NCBI GenBank assembly: GCA_012270675.1
Contig: JAAXHW010000063.1
Location: forward strand, 1 to 64,000
DNA: 64,000 bases
From: Candidatus Latescibacterota bacterium
Lineage (GTDB): Bacteria > Latescibacterota > UBA2968 > GCA-2709665
Direction of reading: 5' to 3'
Shown here: positions 55,406-63,330 of the stretch, in pieces
Layout of the letters: each line of letters begins with the position of its first letter
Numbering within the stretch: the stretch's first letter is position 1
Translations under genes and position numbers: made by a program
The notes under the pieces: model-generated
Databases searched by the model: none
Told to the model about the DNA's origin: nothing
Seen by the model: the letters and a program-made list of their open reading frames with translations, nothing else

Positions 55406-55527
55406 ACATTACCTGGCGTTTGAAAGGCGCTCCGGGACGCCCACCCTGGTTTGGGCACAAGCCCGTGTTGGAGCAGGCAGAATCGATGTTCCACAGATAG
55501 GCTCGTGGTCATTCTCGCAAGTTCATA

Positions 55528-56691: not shown

Positions 56692-56758
56692 CTATCGGTC
56701 CGGGAAGCAAAAGATGCAAATGATTAACAGGATGCTGGCTGTCAGCCTGAGAATGGGA

Positions 56759-56787
56759 AAAATAGAATTTCTCAGGGAATTTGTCAA
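56759..56787 (-). promoter_or_regulatory. Sigma70-type promoter for ndk-DUF177-rpmF-fab cluster
   Basis: Minus strand TTGACA-N17-TATTTT. Confidence 0.65.
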
Positions 56788-56821
56788 TACCATTTTTCGA
56801 CGTCCGTCACCCCGGGGGAGC

Positions 56822-56838
56822 CCGTTTTAAGAAAACGG
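56822..56838. promoter_or_regulatory. Palindrome abutting the ether-lipid operon promoter, putative operator
   Basis: CCGTTTT-aag-AAAACGG immediately followed by TTGACA. Confidence 0.5.
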
Positions 56839-56867
56839 TTGACAGGAAGGCGGCCTCAGCATTTAAT
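56839..56867 (+). promoter_or_regulatory. Sigma70-type promoter for the ether-lipid operon
   Basis: TTGACA-N17-TTTAAT. Confidence 0.65.
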
Positions 56868-56990
56868 TTATACAGGCTTCGGCTTTGAAAATGTCAACAA
56901 AATACGGAAAAGCAGGCAACGGGTCAGCAAGAGTCAAAAAGCCGACGGCCGGTTGCTTGATTAAACGTCTCTTTCTTTTTTCAGATTCCA

Positions 56991-58589
56991 ATGAATTCCA
57001 TTTCCCATTTCTTAGACGGCAAGGTTCTGCTTGTCACGGGATCGACCGGATTTGTGGCGAAGGGACTGGTGGAGAAGCTTCTGCGGTGTGTCCCTGATAT
57101 ACAACGGATTTATCTGCTGGTCCGGCCCAGACGTCAGTCGAGCGGGGCACCTGTTTCGGCGGAGCAGCGGTTGGCACGGGAGGTGTTCCACAGCCGTGCT
57201 TTTGAGAAGCTGCGGAATGAGCAGGGACCGGCGTTCGACAGCGTCATCCGGCAGAAGGTTGTGGCTGTGTCCTATGATCTGGCAGCGGATCGGCTGGGCA
57301 TCGATCCGGAGGTCTATGCGCGGCTTACCCAGGAGGTAGACATTGTAATCAGCGTTGCGGGCACTGTGGTTTTCGACGAGCGCCTCGACCTCGCCCTGGA
57401 AGTGAATACCCTCGGCCCCCAACGGCTGCTTGAGTTTGCAAAGGCCTGTCCAGATGCCATTTTCCTGCATGTGTCAACCGCGTACGTCAACGGGCAGCTG
57501 ACAGGGCGGATTCCCGAAGTGGCGCTCCGGCCGGATTGTACTGTTGCAGAACTGATGGGCAATGGTCGGACATGCGGGTACGATCTGGATGCTGAGATTG
57601 CGTCAATCCGGCAGCTCACCCGGCAGGTGGAGGAGGCGTCACAGCGCTCGGAACTCCAGGACCGGTTCCACCGAATGCTGGAGAAGCAGGACAGGGGCAA
57701 ACGGGTTACGGCGTACAGGCGGACGCACCAGCTTGAGGCCCTGCGTATCCGGTGGATTGGGAAGCGGCTGGTGGAGGAGGGTATGGCCAGGGCGCGGCAG
57801 CTGGGCTGGCACGACTGTTACACTCTGACGAAGGCTATGGGCGAACAGGTGATCGTCAAGACCCGGGGGGATTTGCCCACGGCCATTGTCCGGCCTTCGA
57901 TTATCGAAAGCAGCCTGCTGGATCCCGAACCGGGGTGGCTGGAGGATTTGAAGGTGGCCGATCCGCTGATCGCCTACTATGGCAAGGGGCGGCTGCCCGA
58001 TTTTCCCGCGGATCCCGATGTTGTGATCGATGTGATTCCGGTGGACTTTGTGGTCAATGCGATTATTGCGGCCCTTCCGAGGGTGCGGGAGGAAAAGGAG
58101 GTCAAAGTTTACCAGGTGGCCACCGGGTCTGAAAACCCGATGCGACTGGGGGAGATGTTTGAGCTGGTTTACGACTATTTTAAGCGTAACCCCATGCAGG
58201 ATAAAGCGGGACGGCCCATTGAAGTGCACCGATGGAATTTCCCCAGCCCGAAGGCGTTTCAACGGAACTGCCGCTTGAAATACAAGCTTCCCCTACATAC
58301 GCTGGGCTGGTTGATGGACCACATCCCGCTGTCTTCTCGATGGAGGCGAAAGGTCTCAATGCTGGAAGCGACATTTGACCGGATATTCGCTCTGAGCGAG
58401 ATTTACAGTTGTTATACCAATCTGAATTGCGAGTTCCAGACGGAGAATACCCGTCGGCTTTATGAAGAACTCACTTCTGAAGACCAGGAGACCTTTAACT
58501 TCGACGTGAGCCGAATCGAATGGCAGGACTACATCCAGAACATCCACATCCCGGGGTTACAGCGCCACGTGTTGAAAACCCACACTTGA
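56991..58589 (+). CDS. Fatty acyl-CoA/ACP reductase (FAR-type, extended SDR)
   Basis: HFLDGKVLLVTGSTGFVAKGLVEKLLRCVPDIQRIYLLVRP, FLHVSTAYVNG, CYTLTKAMGEQVI (YxxxK), AIVRPSIIESS, DVIPVDFVVNAIIAA; resembles eukaryotic FAR1/2 and bacterial FARs. Confidence 0.88.
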   Translation: MNSISHFLDGKVLLVTGSTGFVAKGLVEKLLRCVPDIQRIYLLVRPRRQSSGAPVSAEQRLAREVFHSRAFEKLRNEQGPAFDSVIRQKVVAVSYDLAADRLGIDPEVYARLTQEVDIVISVAGTVVFDERLDLALEVNTLGPQRLLEFAKACPDAIFLHVSTAYVNGQLTGRIPEVALRPDCTVAELMGNGRTCGYDLDAEIASIRQLTRQVEEASQRSELQDRFHRMLEKQDRGKRVTAYRRTHQLEALRIRWIGKRLVEEGMARARQLGWHDCYTLTKAMGEQVIVKTRGDLPTAIVRPSIIESSLLDPEPGWLEDLKVADPLIAYYGKGRLPDFPADPDVVIDVIPVDFVVNAIIAALPRVREEKEVKVYQVATGSENPMRLGEMFELVYDYFKRNPMQDKAGRPIEVHRWNFPSPKAFQRNCRLKYKLPLHTLGWLMDHIPLSSRWRRKVSMLEATFDRIFALSEIYSCYTNLNCEFQTENTRRLYEELTSEDQETFNFDVSRIEWQDYIQNIHIPGLQRHVLKTHT

Positions 58590-58638
58590 AACCGAAGCGT
58601 GGAAGATGTGGATTTTTTTGTTTTTCAGGAGCGTTTTG

Positions 58639-60627
58639 ATGGACCGTCGCTATTCTGGCTCCACACCGCTGCTTGAACAGTATATCAACGAACTGATCGA
58701 CGATTCGGATCAGATGTTGGCCACCTACGACCGGATGGCGCAGGAGATTGTTGAGTTAGGACGCCTGGAGGGATATTTTGAGGGCTGGGACACCGGGGCG
58801 TTGAGGTGGCCGCAAAGCCGGACCGAGGCCGGACCGATCGACCTGGAGGGTCTGCAGGCACGGGTGAGGTTGGTGGATGCCTTTTACCAGGGGGTTCCCA
58901 GGCTGCGGGACGGGCGGTTGACCGAGGCATACGAGCAGTTCAGCCGTCTGGCAACCGCCTACCAGAAAGGCAACCGGATCTACCTGCAGGTCAAGGCGCA
59001 GTTCACCGCGCGGGGTGTCGGGACAGAGCAAGATTTTCTGCAGCTTTATCAGACCCTCTACGTCGAGGCGCTGGCGAAGGGGGACCTCTTTGCCCCGGAT
59101 GTGGGGGAGGCGGCCCTGGCACAGGCGAGGGTCTCCCGGGTACCTCTTTCGCACGCACAGGCCGTGGCCGAGGCCCTCTCGACGGTTGCTTTGGGCGACG
59201 ATCGCAGGTGGGAGGATCTCTATTCCTGTACGGTAGACGGGGTCACGACCGAGGCCTCCCTGCGCGATCTGCTTCGAGATGTGGCCCAGCGGACGTTAGA
59301 CCACATTGCGGCCGGGGAACTTTTGGCGACCCGTTACAATACGTACAACAACCTGGGCTGGTTCGGCAGTTCGGTCTGGAAGGTCGTTGTGGGTGCCGAG
59401 TTGTTGTTGTATCGGCTCGCCGCCCGGCTCAATGGAGATGCGGGGGAACAGGAGGCCGTCCGGTCGGATATCTGGCTTGCGCAGGGCATGCTGATCGCGT
59501 TTTTCCAGGCCCACCGCGAAGACCCTGTTCGGTTGAAGCCAGAGAGGTACTGGTACGGACAGGATTACAGCTATTTGACCCGGGATATGATCGACCTGGG
59601 GGTTCGGCTGGTGGGCCGCGTCAACCGGCTGGTTCGGGATGCGAACCGCCCGGGTGGGGAGGATGAATTGAAGGCGCTTGTGCTGCCCCCCCTCCTGGCC
59701 GGGGAGGCCCGCGGGCGGTTTTTGGAATATCCCCAGGTTGGGAGACGGGCAGAACGCTCTCCCTGGCAGCGGGCGTTCAGGCTCGGACGCTGGGCGCTGG
59801 CTTCCTGGAAGACAGGCCGGCGCAGGGTGCGGTTGGCCAGATCGACGCTGGAAGAGGACCGTCGGTTGGAGCGGGCGTGGCAGGAGTGGGTGAGGTGGGC
59901 CGGGGCCACGCTTCGAATTTTTGACATTCAGGTCAAAATCCGTATCGATCCCCAGTTTCTCCCGGTTGCCAGAGCGCTGGGTCTGGACAGTGGAAAGCGG
60001 AAGGTCCTTTTTTTGCCGGCCCACCAGAGTCTGCTGGACCATCCGATTATGTATCACGTGCTGGGCTCCTCCGAACTGATGGCTGCGATGGGCTGGGAAA
60101 AGCCGAGGCCCTGCGTGCTTCTGGGTCGCACCGGGCTGTCCAGGGCGGGCGTGAGGATCGGCTCCTGGAACCTGACGATGTTTGGCGTCTCTTCGGAGAC
60201 CTTCGACTGGATGCTGGAAGAGCTGGATGGTTATGTGACGCGCGAACGCGTCGGTGGGACAGGCTCTACGGCCATGAGGGTTGTGGCGGCGCTGGGAAAA
60301 CGTCCGGGCATCATCTATCCTATGGGGACAACGCCCGCTTTCGACATCCAGCTCTTTCCACTCCAGCATGGGATGTTCGCTCAGCTGCCCCACGATGTGG
60401 TCATTGTACCCATCGTTTTCCGAGGCGCCCACTCCCTCTGGCCCAAGTGTCCCAGGGGCAACCTGAACATCAGTCCGGGCGTGGTCGAGGCCGTGGTTGC
60501 TCCTCCGATGCTGGGTGAGACCACGCTACTGCCCAAGCGGCGGCGGCTGCGGATTCAGCTGGAGGCCGCAAATCTTTTTCAGGCGGTCCACATTTCTACG
60601 CTGTTGAATCCCGAGCCTTCGGGGTAA
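58639..60627 (+). CDS. Large divergent glycerolipid acyltransferase (PlsB/GNPAT/PlsC-like)
   Basis: VLFLPAHQSLLDHPIMYHVL (HX4D), IIYPMGTTPAF in the position of FPEGT, VVIVPIVFRGAH; ~660 aa; RBS before ATG 58639. Confidence 0.7.
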   Translation: MDRRYSGSTPLLEQYINELIDDSDQMLATYDRMAQEIVELGRLEGYFEGWDTGALRWPQSRTEAGPIDLEGLQARVRLVDAFYQGVPRLRDGRLTEAYEQFSRLATAYQKGNRIYLQVKAQFTARGVGTEQDFLQLYQTLYVEALAKGDLFAPDVGEAALAQARVSRVPLSHAQAVAEALSTVALGDDRRWEDLYSCTVDGVTTEASLRDLLRDVAQRTLDHIAAGELLATRYNTYNNLGWFGSSVWKVVVGAELLLYRLAARLNGDAGEQEAVRSDIWLAQGMLIAFFQAHREDPVRLKPERYWYGQDYSYLTRDMIDLGVRLVGRVNRLVRDANRPGGEDELKALVLPPLLAGEARGRFLEYPQVGRRAERSPWQRAFRLGRWALASWKTGRRRVRLARSTLEEDRRLERAWQEWVRWAGATLRIFDIQVKIRIDPQFLPVARALGLDSGKRKVLFLPAHQSLLDHPIMYHVLGSSELMAAMGWEKPRPCVLLGRTGLSRAGVRIGSWNLTMFGVSSETFDWMLEELDGYVTRERVGGTGSTAMRVVAALGKRPGIIYPMGTTPAFDIQLFPLQHGMFAQLPHDVVIVPIVFRGAHSLWPKCPRGNLNISPGVVEAVVAPPMLGETTLLPKRRRLRIQLEAANLFQAVHISTLLNPEPSG

Positions 60628-60650
60628 AACAGGGATCGGGGAATGGATCT

Positions 60651-62501
60651 ATGGTAGAAGCAGTGACATTGGCGATTGTCGTGGGAGCAGTTTTTGCAAT
60701 CTACCTGGTGAAGCGGCGGCGTTCCTATCGGGATCTGGACGCTTTTTACGACCTTTCCGAAGGAGAGCGATTTGCCCACAGATGGGGGTATACGGATACC
60801 CGGTTTGAGTTTGAGGACCCCAGGACCGTTAAGGTCACCGGGAGCAGATATCCGATATCGGGTTACCGGATGCCGTATCTGGTTTCCTTCCTGGAAGATA
60901 CGCTTGATATCTCTATCCATCCGGACGATATGAATGTGGAGGTGGAAGACCAGGAGGTACCCGAACCGAATATCAACGGTGGGTTTCTGGCTTCTGTTCA
61001 GGCCAGATTCAAAGCGGACCAGTACTCACGCGATGCAAAGGAGCGCCTGATTCACAGCCACGGACAGCTGAGTGTAGACGAAATTTATCGGGTGCTGTAT
61101 TCGTCATCGCTGAAACGGACAGTCGATCTGGTCTTTTATCCTGAGGGAGAAGATGAGGTCAGGGCGGTTATCGAACTGGCGAACGAGCACAATGTGTGTC
61201 TGGTGCCCTATGGAGGCGGGACGAACGTAAGCGGCGCGCTGGCCTGTCCGGTTGAAGAACAGCGGATGATTGTGTCGGTGGATTTAAGGCGCATGAACCG
61301 AATTCTGTGGATTGATCAGGAGAATTATCTGGCCTGCGCCGAAGCGGGCATCCTGGGCAAGCAGCTGGAGGTGGAGCTTGAGAGAAAGGGGTACACGTCG
61401 GGGCACGATCCGGACAGTGTTGAGCTTTCGACCCTGGGGGGATGGATTGCGACCAATGCCAGCGGGATGAAAAAGAACAGATACGGCAATATCGAAGAGA
61501 TCGTGCTTGAGGCCACGCTGGTTACGCCTACGGGGGAGATTGAAACAAAGCATGTAACGCCGAGGAATTCAACCGGCATCCAGCCCAGGTCTTTTCTGTT
61601 CGGCAGCGAGGGCAATTTTGGCATTATTACCAAGGCGGTGATCAAGGTCCATCACCTGCCTGAGGCGCGCAAATACGGGTCGCTTGTGTTTCCCTCTTTT
61701 GAGAAGGGCGTCGGCTTCTTAAAGGCATTGCGTCAGACGGGCGGGTTGCCCGCAAGTATCCGTCTGGGGAGCAATAAGGAGCTTCGATTCGCACAGGCTT
61801 TAAAACATGAACCGACATTTTTGAAGGGGATTAAAGAGAAGGTGCAGGCATTCTTTATGCAGAAAATCCTGGGGTTCGATCCGATGCAGATGGTCGTCTG
61901 CACCATTGTGATGGAGGGGTCAAAAGGGGAGGTGCGCCAGCAGGATAAGACGATCTTCAGTCTGGCTAAAAAGCACGGCGGCATGAGCGCCGGCGCGAGC
62001 ATCGGCAAACGGGGGTATGCGCTGACGTTCGGGATTGCTTATATCCGGGATTTCGTCAACGAGCTTCAGATCCTGGGGGAGACGTTTGAGACGTCGGTGC
62101 CGTGGGATAAGATCCACCAGGTGTGCCAGGCCGTGCAGAAGGAACTGGACGAACAGGCGGTGAGGCATCACATACCGGGCAAGCCCTATCTCCAGTACCG
62201 TGTTCCGCAGACGTACCACACAGGGGTTTGTATTTATTTTACGATGGGTTTTTGTGCAAAAGGGCTGGAAAGGCCGGATGAGGTTTTTCACGTTATCGAG
62301 CGGCGCCTGCGGCAGGTTATTCTCGACAACGGCGGCTCTTTGTCCCACCACCACGGCGTGGGCAAGATCCGGCAGGGTTTCCTGCCCCAGGTTCAGACTG
62401 AAAACACCATCCATGTTTTGCGTCAGACCAAAAAGGCGATGGATCCCAACAATATCTTTGGCATCAGAAACGGCGTTTTTCATGCGTTCCCGGAAGATTG
62501 A
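60651..62501 (+). CDS. Alkyldihydroxyacetonephosphate synthase (AGPS)-family FAD enzyme with N-terminal TM
   Basis: PYGGGTNVSGA, MNRILWIDQEN, GHDPDSVELSTLGGWIATNASGMKKNRYGNIEEIV, TPRNSTGIQPRSFLFGSEGNFGIITKA, PASIRLGSNKELRFAQALK, RGYALTFGIAYIRDF, GETFETSVPWDKI, NGGSLSHHHGVGKIR, MDPNNIFGIRN. Confidence 0.93.
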   Translation: MVEAVTLAIVVGAVFAIYLVKRRRSYRDLDAFYDLSEGERFAHRWGYTDTRFEFEDPRTVKVTGSRYPISGYRMPYLVSFLEDTLDISIHPDDMNVEVEDQEVPEPNINGGFLASVQARFKADQYSRDAKERLIHSHGQLSVDEIYRVLYSSSLKRTVDLVFYPEGEDEVRAVIELANEHNVCLVPYGGGTNVSGALACPVEEQRMIVSVDLRRMNRILWIDQENYLACAEAGILGKQLEVELERKGYTSGHDPDSVELSTLGGWIATNASGMKKNRYGNIEEIVLEATLVTPTGEIETKHVTPRNSTGIQPRSFLFGSEGNFGIITKAVIKVHHLPEARKYGSLVFPSFEKGVGFLKALRQTGGLPASIRLGSNKELRFAQALKHEPTFLKGIKEKVQAFFMQKILGFDPMQMVVCTIVMEGSKGEVRQQDKTIFSLAKKHGGMSAGASIGKRGYALTFGIAYIRDFVNELQILGETFETSVPWDKIHQVCQAVQKELDEQAVRHHIPGKPYLQYRVPQTYHTGVCIYFTMGFCAKGLERPDEVFHVIERRLRQVILDNGGSLSHHHGVGKIRQGFLPQVQTENTIHVLRQTKKAMDPNNIFGIRNGVFHAFPED

Positions 62502-62523
62502 TGCATGCTAAGCAGGCCATAAA

Positions 62524-63330
62524 ATGCCTCAAGAAAAGACAGTGATCATCACAGGGGCTTCTTCGGGGCTTGGTGCATCGCTGGCCCTGGAATTCGCCAA
62601 GGCCGGAGCGAATCTCGGGCTGTTTGCACTGGACGAGGAAGGGCTGGTGGAAACCGCGGCCAAGTGTCGGGAGCGCGGGGCCCGCGTGCTTACGGTTGCC
62701 GGAGACGTGGGAAGGCCGGAAGACTGTGAACAACTGGTTGAAGATACGGTTTCCCAGTTTGGGGGGGTGGACTACCTGATTGCCTGTGCCGGTGTGAGTA
62801 TGTGGGCGAAATTCGAAGAGATTGAGGACGTGTCCATATTCCGCAAGCTTATGGAGACAAATTATCTTGGTATTGTCAACTGCGTCTATTATGCCCTTCC
62901 GCATTTGAAGGTGCGCAGCGGGATGATTGTGGCCATCTCCTCGATCCAGGGCAAGATAGGCGTTCCGTTCCATACGGGTTATGTCGCCTCCAAGCACGCT
63001 GTGCAGGGTTTTTTCGAGTCTCTGCGAGCCGAGCTCAGCGGGAGCGGCGTGGATGTTCTGACCGTATTGCCCCACTGGTTGAGGGGGACCAATTTGCGGA
63101 AGAGCGCGTTTGGGAAAGATGGGAGCGCCATGGGCGCGTCGAAAAAAAAACACAGCAAGGAGTCCATCTCCCTTGAGGCATGCTGTCAGGCCATCCTCAA
63201 AGCAATGGAAAAGAGGAAAAGGGAGCTGGTCATTCCTTCAAAGCTCAAGCTCCTTCCGTGGTTAAATCTGATCAATCCCGGGATCGTGGCGTTTTTCGTC
63301 AAGGGGGCGATGGAACAGCAGGACAGGTAA
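62524..63330 (+). CDS. Short-chain dehydrogenase, DHRS7B (acyl/alkyl-DHAP reductase)-like
   Basis: VIITGASSGLGASLALEFAKAGA, METNYLGIVN, VAISSIQGKIGVPFHTGYVASKHAVQGFFESLRAEL, LRKSAFGKDGSAMG, hydrophobic C-terminal tail. Confidence 0.85.
   Translation: MPQEKTVIITGASSGLGASLALEFAKAGANLGLFALDEEGLVETAAKCRERGARVLTVAGDVGRPEDCEQLVEDTVSQFGGVDYLIACAGVSMWAKFEEIEDVSIFRKLMETNYLGIVNCVYYALPHLKVRSGMIVAISSIQGKIGVPFHTGYVASKHAVQGFFESLRAELSGSGVDVLTVLPHWLRGTNLRKSAFGKDGSAMGASKKKHSKESISLEACCQAILKAMEKRKRELVIPSKLKLLPWLNLINPGIVAFFVKGAMEQQDR

Follow-up and report, generated by a model that had tools for sequence, protein, structure and literature searches.

A predicted ether-lipid operon in Latescibacterota

We analysed a stretch of 64,000 nucleotides (nt) from a Candidatus Latescibacterota bacterium (GenBank assembly GCA_012270675.1, contig JAAXHW010000063.1, positions 1 to 64,000; hereafter the window), and describe here four + strand open reading frames (ORFs) that make up positions 56991-63330 and encode, in this order, a fatty acyl-CoA reductase (FAR), a divergent large acyltransferase (AT), an alkylglycerone-phosphate synthase (AGPS) and a short-chain dehydrogenase (SDR). 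The ORF list places them exactly where an earlier reading of the letters (the original prediction) had put them:

56991-58589, + strand: FAR, 532 aa
58606-60627, + strand: AT, 673 aa (likely start at an internal ATG at 58639, going by orthologue starts)
60651-62501, + strand: AGPS, 616 aa
62524-63330, + strand: SDR, 268 aa

The intergenic gaps within the operon are 16, 23 and 22 nt; the range of 20-50 nt given beforehand thus holds for the latter two and not for the first, which becomes 49 nt if AT starts at ATG 58639 (as the orthologues suggest). In animals, FAR, GNPAT, AGPS and DHRS7B/PexRAP form the four-step peroxisomal route to ether lipids, and we consider it highly probable that the operon encodes a dihydroxyacetone phosphate (DHAP)-based ether-glycerolipid pathway, with a chemistry that would follow the established animal one.

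Identity of the four gene products

The best solved-structure match of the AGPS protein is guinea-pig AGPS (4bby, E=1.3e-147, residues 44-607), with the next non-AGPS families (D-lactate/glycolate enzymes, E about 1e-22 to 1e-16, the nearest of them at 7e-22) being ~120 orders of magnitude weaker; the window protein is 42% identical to the guinea-pig enzyme (guinea-pig vs Dictyostelium AGPS: 34%). Window residues T261, R371, R466, Y529 and HHH566-568 align with guinea-pig T309, R419, R515, Y578 and H615-617, and the last four of these positions (R419, R515, Y578 and H615-617 in guinea-pig numbering), which we take to be catalytic or disease-linked, are invariant in 39/39 Latescibacterota AGPS, with the nine outgroup sequences of the D-lactate dehydrogenase (D-LDH)/GlcD type showing E at 419, a variable residue at 515, H at 578 and A/G-E-H at 615-617. 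Chain 4bca has Phe at 578 and chain 4bc7 has His at 419, and therefore we regard those residues as mutated by structural workers. A maximum-likelihood tree separated the D-LDH/GlcD outgroup (100/100) and joined guinea-pig AGPS, again at 100/100, to the clade of Latescibacterota AGPS, with the Dictyostelium, Streptomyces and Desulfobacterota homologues lying outside this group; as it has several long branches and a sample without myxobacterial sequences, we name no donor. Furthermore, the window AGPS has a hydrophobic N-terminal anchor helix (residues ~2-20), and most orthologues start alike.

The domains of this protein (a VAO-type flavin adenine dinucleotide (FAD) domain, PF01565, and FAD-oxidase_C, PF02913) are generic and common to both enzyme groups, which would favour reading it as a D-lactate/glycolate-type oxidase in a cluster unrelated to ether lipids. 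The E-values (1e-147 to AGPS vs 1e-22 to D-LDH), the catalytic residues and the tree, in which the protein did not group with such oxidases, make that reading extremely improbable, and at the level of sequence we ruled it out. The strong likeness to animal AGPS that the original prediction had noted was in this way borne out, and by family, active-site residues and phylogenetic position the gene is predicted to encode a genuine alkyl-DHAP synthase (EC 2.5.1.26).

The FAR protein has the two domains known from eukaryotic-type FARs, each over the Pfam cut-off (PF07993, NAD_binding_4, at E=3.7e-65; PF03015, Sterile, at E=7e-18), together with the motifs TGSTGFVAKG (Rossmann) and YTLTK (YxxxK); its best solved-structure match is a fatty acyl-CoA reductase (7eoz, E=5.8e-94), in agreement with its earlier description as a FAR-type reductase. 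Orthologues (54-62% identical) occupy the corresponding operon position in the order and in a further family, f3, and the operon FAR is the sole FAR match in the host genome. It is the predicted source of fatty alcohol, a pathway step that is well supported by family.

The SDR matched PF00106 (E=6e-48) and NCBIfam PRK06181 (297.7 bits vs a cut-off of 215, which 4 orthologues also pass), an SDR family of unspecified substrate; it has the classical SDR motifs TGASSGLG (TGxxxGxG) and YVASK (YxxxK), and its nearest solved structures are those of 11-beta-HSD1. A likeness to DHRS7B is presumed from its motifs. On the basis of fold, operon position and pathway logic, the protein is a predicted acyl/alkyl-DHAP reductase that would act on DHAP intermediates. 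By analogy, the operon may need at this step just the dual activity described for human DHRS7 and DHRS7B, for which acyl- and alkyl-glycerone phosphate are both substrates (PMC13200781). A gene for a YegS/DAGK-type lipid kinase follows SDR in 13 relatives and is not present in the window.

For AT, no Pfam or NCBIfam family was found over cut-off (PF01553 stayed below it, with E=0.011 in the window and 0.0027-0.012 in orthologues), a profile search against the PDB gave chance matches only, and no match was found in 72,556 plasmid records. An AlphaFold model built from 17 orthologues (pLDDT 79.7, pTM 0.83) gave in Foldseek a best and only significant PDB match to PlsC (5kym, E=4e-4, prob 1.00, TMt 0.55), with PatA next in the list; the PlsC match covers the C-terminal part, and the N-terminal ~430 aa are helical and without a structural match. 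As judged from the modelled fold, AT is an acyltransferase with a PlsC/LPLAT-like C-terminal domain, and its position in the operon and the pathway logic make it a predicted DHAP (or glycerol-3-phosphate, G3P) acyltransferase. It is not recognisable as a GNPAT, the enzyme whose step it takes in the original prediction: besides the sub-threshold PF01553 match, it shows changes in motifs that glycerol-phosphate acyltransferases as a rule share, and PF19277 (GPAT_C, the PlsB/GNPAT C-terminal domain) is absent from the host genome and its relatives (0/59 genomes, of which 47 belong to the host class and 12 are relatives from other classes; the E. coli control matched).

Conservation and genomic context

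AGPS was found in 19/20 order-level relatives, and in 18 of these 19 genomes FAR, AT, AGPS and SDR follow one another in this order on the same strand; a short insert interrupts the row in some of them, one has its FAR truncated at a contig end, and the 19th locus is broken by a contig end. As this order is kept across genera at identities of 47-60% for AT and 62-71% for AGPS, the adjacency is not due to chance, and the incidental neighbourhood that the original prediction had allowed for can be dismissed. Moreover, family f3 shows the same order again, with an AGPS that belongs to a different clade (47% identical), with another SDR (28%) and with a gene for an acyl-CoA synthetase (ACS) ahead of FAR; two parts have been replaced and the order has been kept, which is therefore strong evidence of function. 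In a third arrangement (the sister family f4) the AGPS-SDR pair is kept, AT lies elsewhere in the genome, and the stand-alone FAR operon is absent, FAR being found mostly within an ElbD-type protein of ~1400 aa that joins FAR, ACS, acyl carrier protein (ACP) and PlsC.

Upstream of the operon and divergent from it lie ndk and then a fatty-acid synthesis cluster (yceD-rpmF-fabH-fabG-acpP-fabF-rnc), and downstream of SDR lies a convergent bioD (the fab, rpmF, yceD, rnc and bioD names were assigned from sequence and layout, the domain matches being NDK and AAA_26 alone). Two intervals of this neighbourhood deserve mention:

56692-56990, + strand: intergenic stretch of 299 nt that separates ndk (-) from the divergently oriented FAR (+); presumed, from the layout, to contain the promoter of the operon
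55406-55527, - strand: rpmF-fabH junction of the fab cluster, 122 nt; no plsX in between according to the ORF lists

A promoter and terminator scan of the operon gave promoter-like matches at consensus level only and was uninformative, and the Rfam and tRNA scans returned no match. The host genome consists of 318 contigs (94% complete, 7% contaminated; the window is contig C262), and contamination or a chimeric contig was ruled out because orthologous loci across the order share the same ndk/fab flanks.

Start of glycerolipid synthesis in the host class

Among the 47 class genomes (including single-contig, 99%-complete relatives) PlsY was found in none, and PlsX over cut-off in none (one match fell below it); the fab clusters of relatives likewise have no plsX between rpmF and fabH. 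PlsX and PlsY were both found in each of the 12 relatives from other classes of the phylum, and AT, FAR and AGPS in none of them. AT is present in 46/47 class genomes, some of them without AGPS. In a class without PlsX, PlsY or PF19277 this near-universal presence implies that AT may start all glycerolipid synthesis, and we regard it as a candidate initiating acyltransferase for all glycerolipids of the class.

On this reading the operon would be the main gateway to all glycerolipids of the class: AT, in place of PlsB and PlsX/PlsY, would make acyl-DHAP, which SDR would convert to ester-type lysophosphatidic acid (LPA) unless AGPS had first swapped the acyl for an alkyl chain. We hold this to be possible and put it forward tentatively. 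The genomic contrast between the classes and the occurrence of AT in AGPS-less genomes speak for it, as does the action of DHRS7-type reductases on acyl-DHAP (PMC13200781). On the other hand, the contrast is one of a single class against the rest and thus effectively a single evolutionary event, and with G3P as the substrate of AT, ester lipids would need no SDR. Moreover, other initiating enzymes exist, as the control genome of Bacteroides ihuae has no PlsX or PlsY match either, and the host genome itself encodes two further PF01553 proteins besides an ElbD-like one, among them one of 445 aa (contig C101, whose composition fits the window) that could acylate G3P or DHAP and is a candidate rival starter. 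The boldest form of the idea, which we judge somewhat unlikely, is that the class gave up PlsB and PlsX/PlsY, that AT represents a new family of large acyltransferases which starts all glycerolipids on DHAP, and that SDR and AGPS decide between ester and ether, making a bacterial DHAP pathway the sole route.

Proposed pathway and alternative readings

In the pathway that we propose, FAR would reduce acyl-CoA (or acyl-ACP) to a fatty alcohol and AT would acylate DHAP to 1-acyl-DHAP; AGPS, a flavoenzyme held by its N-terminal helix anchor, would exchange the acyl group for the alcohol to give 1-alkyl-DHAP, and SDR would reduce the ketone of the latter to yield 1-alkyl-glycerol-3-phosphate, to which a PlsC-type enzyme encoded elsewhere in the genome would add the second chain. 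The steps of FAR and AGPS are well supported by family, and those of AT and SDR are predicted from fold, operon position and pathway logic. As no CarF/PEDS1 was found (PF10520 in 0/59 genomes, while no control genome matched either), an alkyl (plasmanyl) lipid is a more probable product than one with a vinyl ether. Of the self-contained, four-step alkyl-glycerol-phosphate operon first envisaged, the AGPS-type grouping of FAR, acyltransferase, AGPS and SDR stands, and the recognisable GNPAT does not.

Several observations weigh against this pathway, most of them at AT, which is the weakest part of the operon assignment (it is not recognisable as a GNPAT, and its substrate is a prediction). The HX4D motif of the original description reads HQSLLD in the window; its His473 is invariant among the orthologues, and its Asp is Glu in 5/17 of them. 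In addition, the EGTRS block has lost its arginine (YPMGTT in the window, YGEGTT or YGAGTT in f4), and in the f4 genus g14 four genomes (G030, G031, G036 and G039) have AT but no detectable AGPS (3/4 of them have FAR/ElbD), so that the link between AT and AGPS is not a strict one. Moreover, disruption of the AGPS gene in Myxococcus xanthus lowers ether lipids only slightly (PMC9131029).

The altered motifs of AT, its weak family membership, its separation from AGPS-SDR in f4 and its persistence in g14 would all fit an enzyme that performs some other acyl transfer (e.g. sn-2 acylation of alkyl-LPA), with acyl-DHAP being supplied by, for example, the C101 protein; that the acyltransferase of a Streptomyces cluster (described below) is PlsC-type points the same way. 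We nevertheless consider this unlikely, for AT stands between FAR and AGPS both in the order and in f3, and a separate PlsC-like protein (contig C259) is already present in the host genome. It is also conceivable that the product of the operon is a more specialised ether (a wax-like, storage or signalling lipid, or the alkylglycerol head of a natural product) and not a bulk membrane lipid, since FARs feed wax esters as well, the ether lipids of M. xanthus have roles in its development and in light signalling (PMC9131029), and a lipid kinase gene follows SDR in several relatives. Order-wide conservation beside fatty-acid synthesis and ndk genes is housekeeping-like, and makes such a role quite unlikely. 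Weighing these alternatives, we retain the DHAP-based pathway to alkyl glycerolipids as the preferred reading of the operon.

Relation to known systems

For the question of whether bacteria use an animal-type DHAP route to ether lipids, this conserved operon offers the steps as four separate proteins that lend themselves to reconstitution. That animal AGPS is closer in the tree to the Latescibacterota clade than to the Dictyostelium enzyme is relevant to how the peroxisomal pathway arose, and the absence of PlsX, PlsY and the PlsB/GNPAT C-terminal domain throughout the class suggests that an as yet undescribed acyltransferase takes the initiating step. Furthermore, the operon product would help to identify the producers of bacterial non-isoprenoid ether-lipid biomarkers.

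A second grouping of the same four activities was found on a plasmid of Streptomyces sp. NBC_01450 (NZ_CP109481.1, ~1075.5-1082.7 kb), in which FAR-HAD, SDR, a PlsC-type acyltransferase and AGPS lie within 8 kb (the gene table used listed no genes there). It differs from the window operon by its divergent FAR (the sole FAR match among the 72,556 plasmid records), which has a HAD phosphatase as its fusion partner and shows no similarity to AT, by its PlsC-type acyltransferase, and by an AGPS nearer to that of Dictyostelium (39%); the cluster is an independent second build of the four activities from different enzyme families. AGPS-like genes of Desulfobacterota (8/297 genomes, 31-34% identity) were set aside as candidates for the same pathway, as no FAR, AT or SDR match was found in their vicinity and 6/9 have Gln in place of the middle His (HQH).

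Among other bacterial systems, PlsA-PlsR and Ger of anaerobes also lead to ether lipids, but start from a completed diacyl lipid and reduce its ester, whereas the window operon is of the DHAP/AGPS type. In the myxobacterial elb system (ElbB, ElbD, ElbE) a FAR domain and an acyltransferase likewise serve ether-lipid synthesis, and f4 carries ElbD-type proteins; the order of the window, by contrast, has a stand-alone FAR beside AGPS, and the ElbD-like protein of the host (contig C282, with an epimerase-family gene after it) joins ACS, ACP and PlsC, with no FAR domain found. With the animal FAR1/GNPAT/AGPS/DHRS7B pathway the operon shares the same four logical steps, the AGPS catalytic residues that were checked (all identical) and the two Pfam domains of FAR; it differs in that its AT is without PF19277, its AGPS is membrane-anchored, all steps are placed in one operon and one compartment, and no PEDS1/CarF was found.

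The original prediction had considered a compact locus of this kind potentially undescribed, a claim that does not hold: the M. xanthus MXAN_1676-1674 operon (with a FAR1-like/GNPAT-like fusion protein, a gene of the dehydrogenase family and an AGPS ~42% identical to the human enzyme) already pairs these functions and is implicated in alkyl-ether lipids, the steps leading to which are described as unknown there (PMC9131029), and among Black Sea Latescibacterota metagenome-assembled genomes AGPS homologues have been counted in 67/92 and ElbD in 50/92 (PMC11868695). In the open-access papers searched we found no description of the four-gene arrangement or of the lack of PlsX/PlsY in the host class. 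Compared by its published description, MXAN_1676-1674 resembles the window operon in uniting AGPS, FAR, acyltransferase and dehydrogenase functions in one operon, and differs from it in that FAR and acyltransferase are fused (separate ORFs in the window and its relatives), AGPS is listed first and the third gene is an epimerase/dehydratase, where the window has the order FAR-AT-AGPS-SDR and an SDR of the PRK06181 type. The concept is thus known, and the Latescibacterota operon is a variant of it with four separate genes, an acyltransferase outside the filed families and a different SDR.

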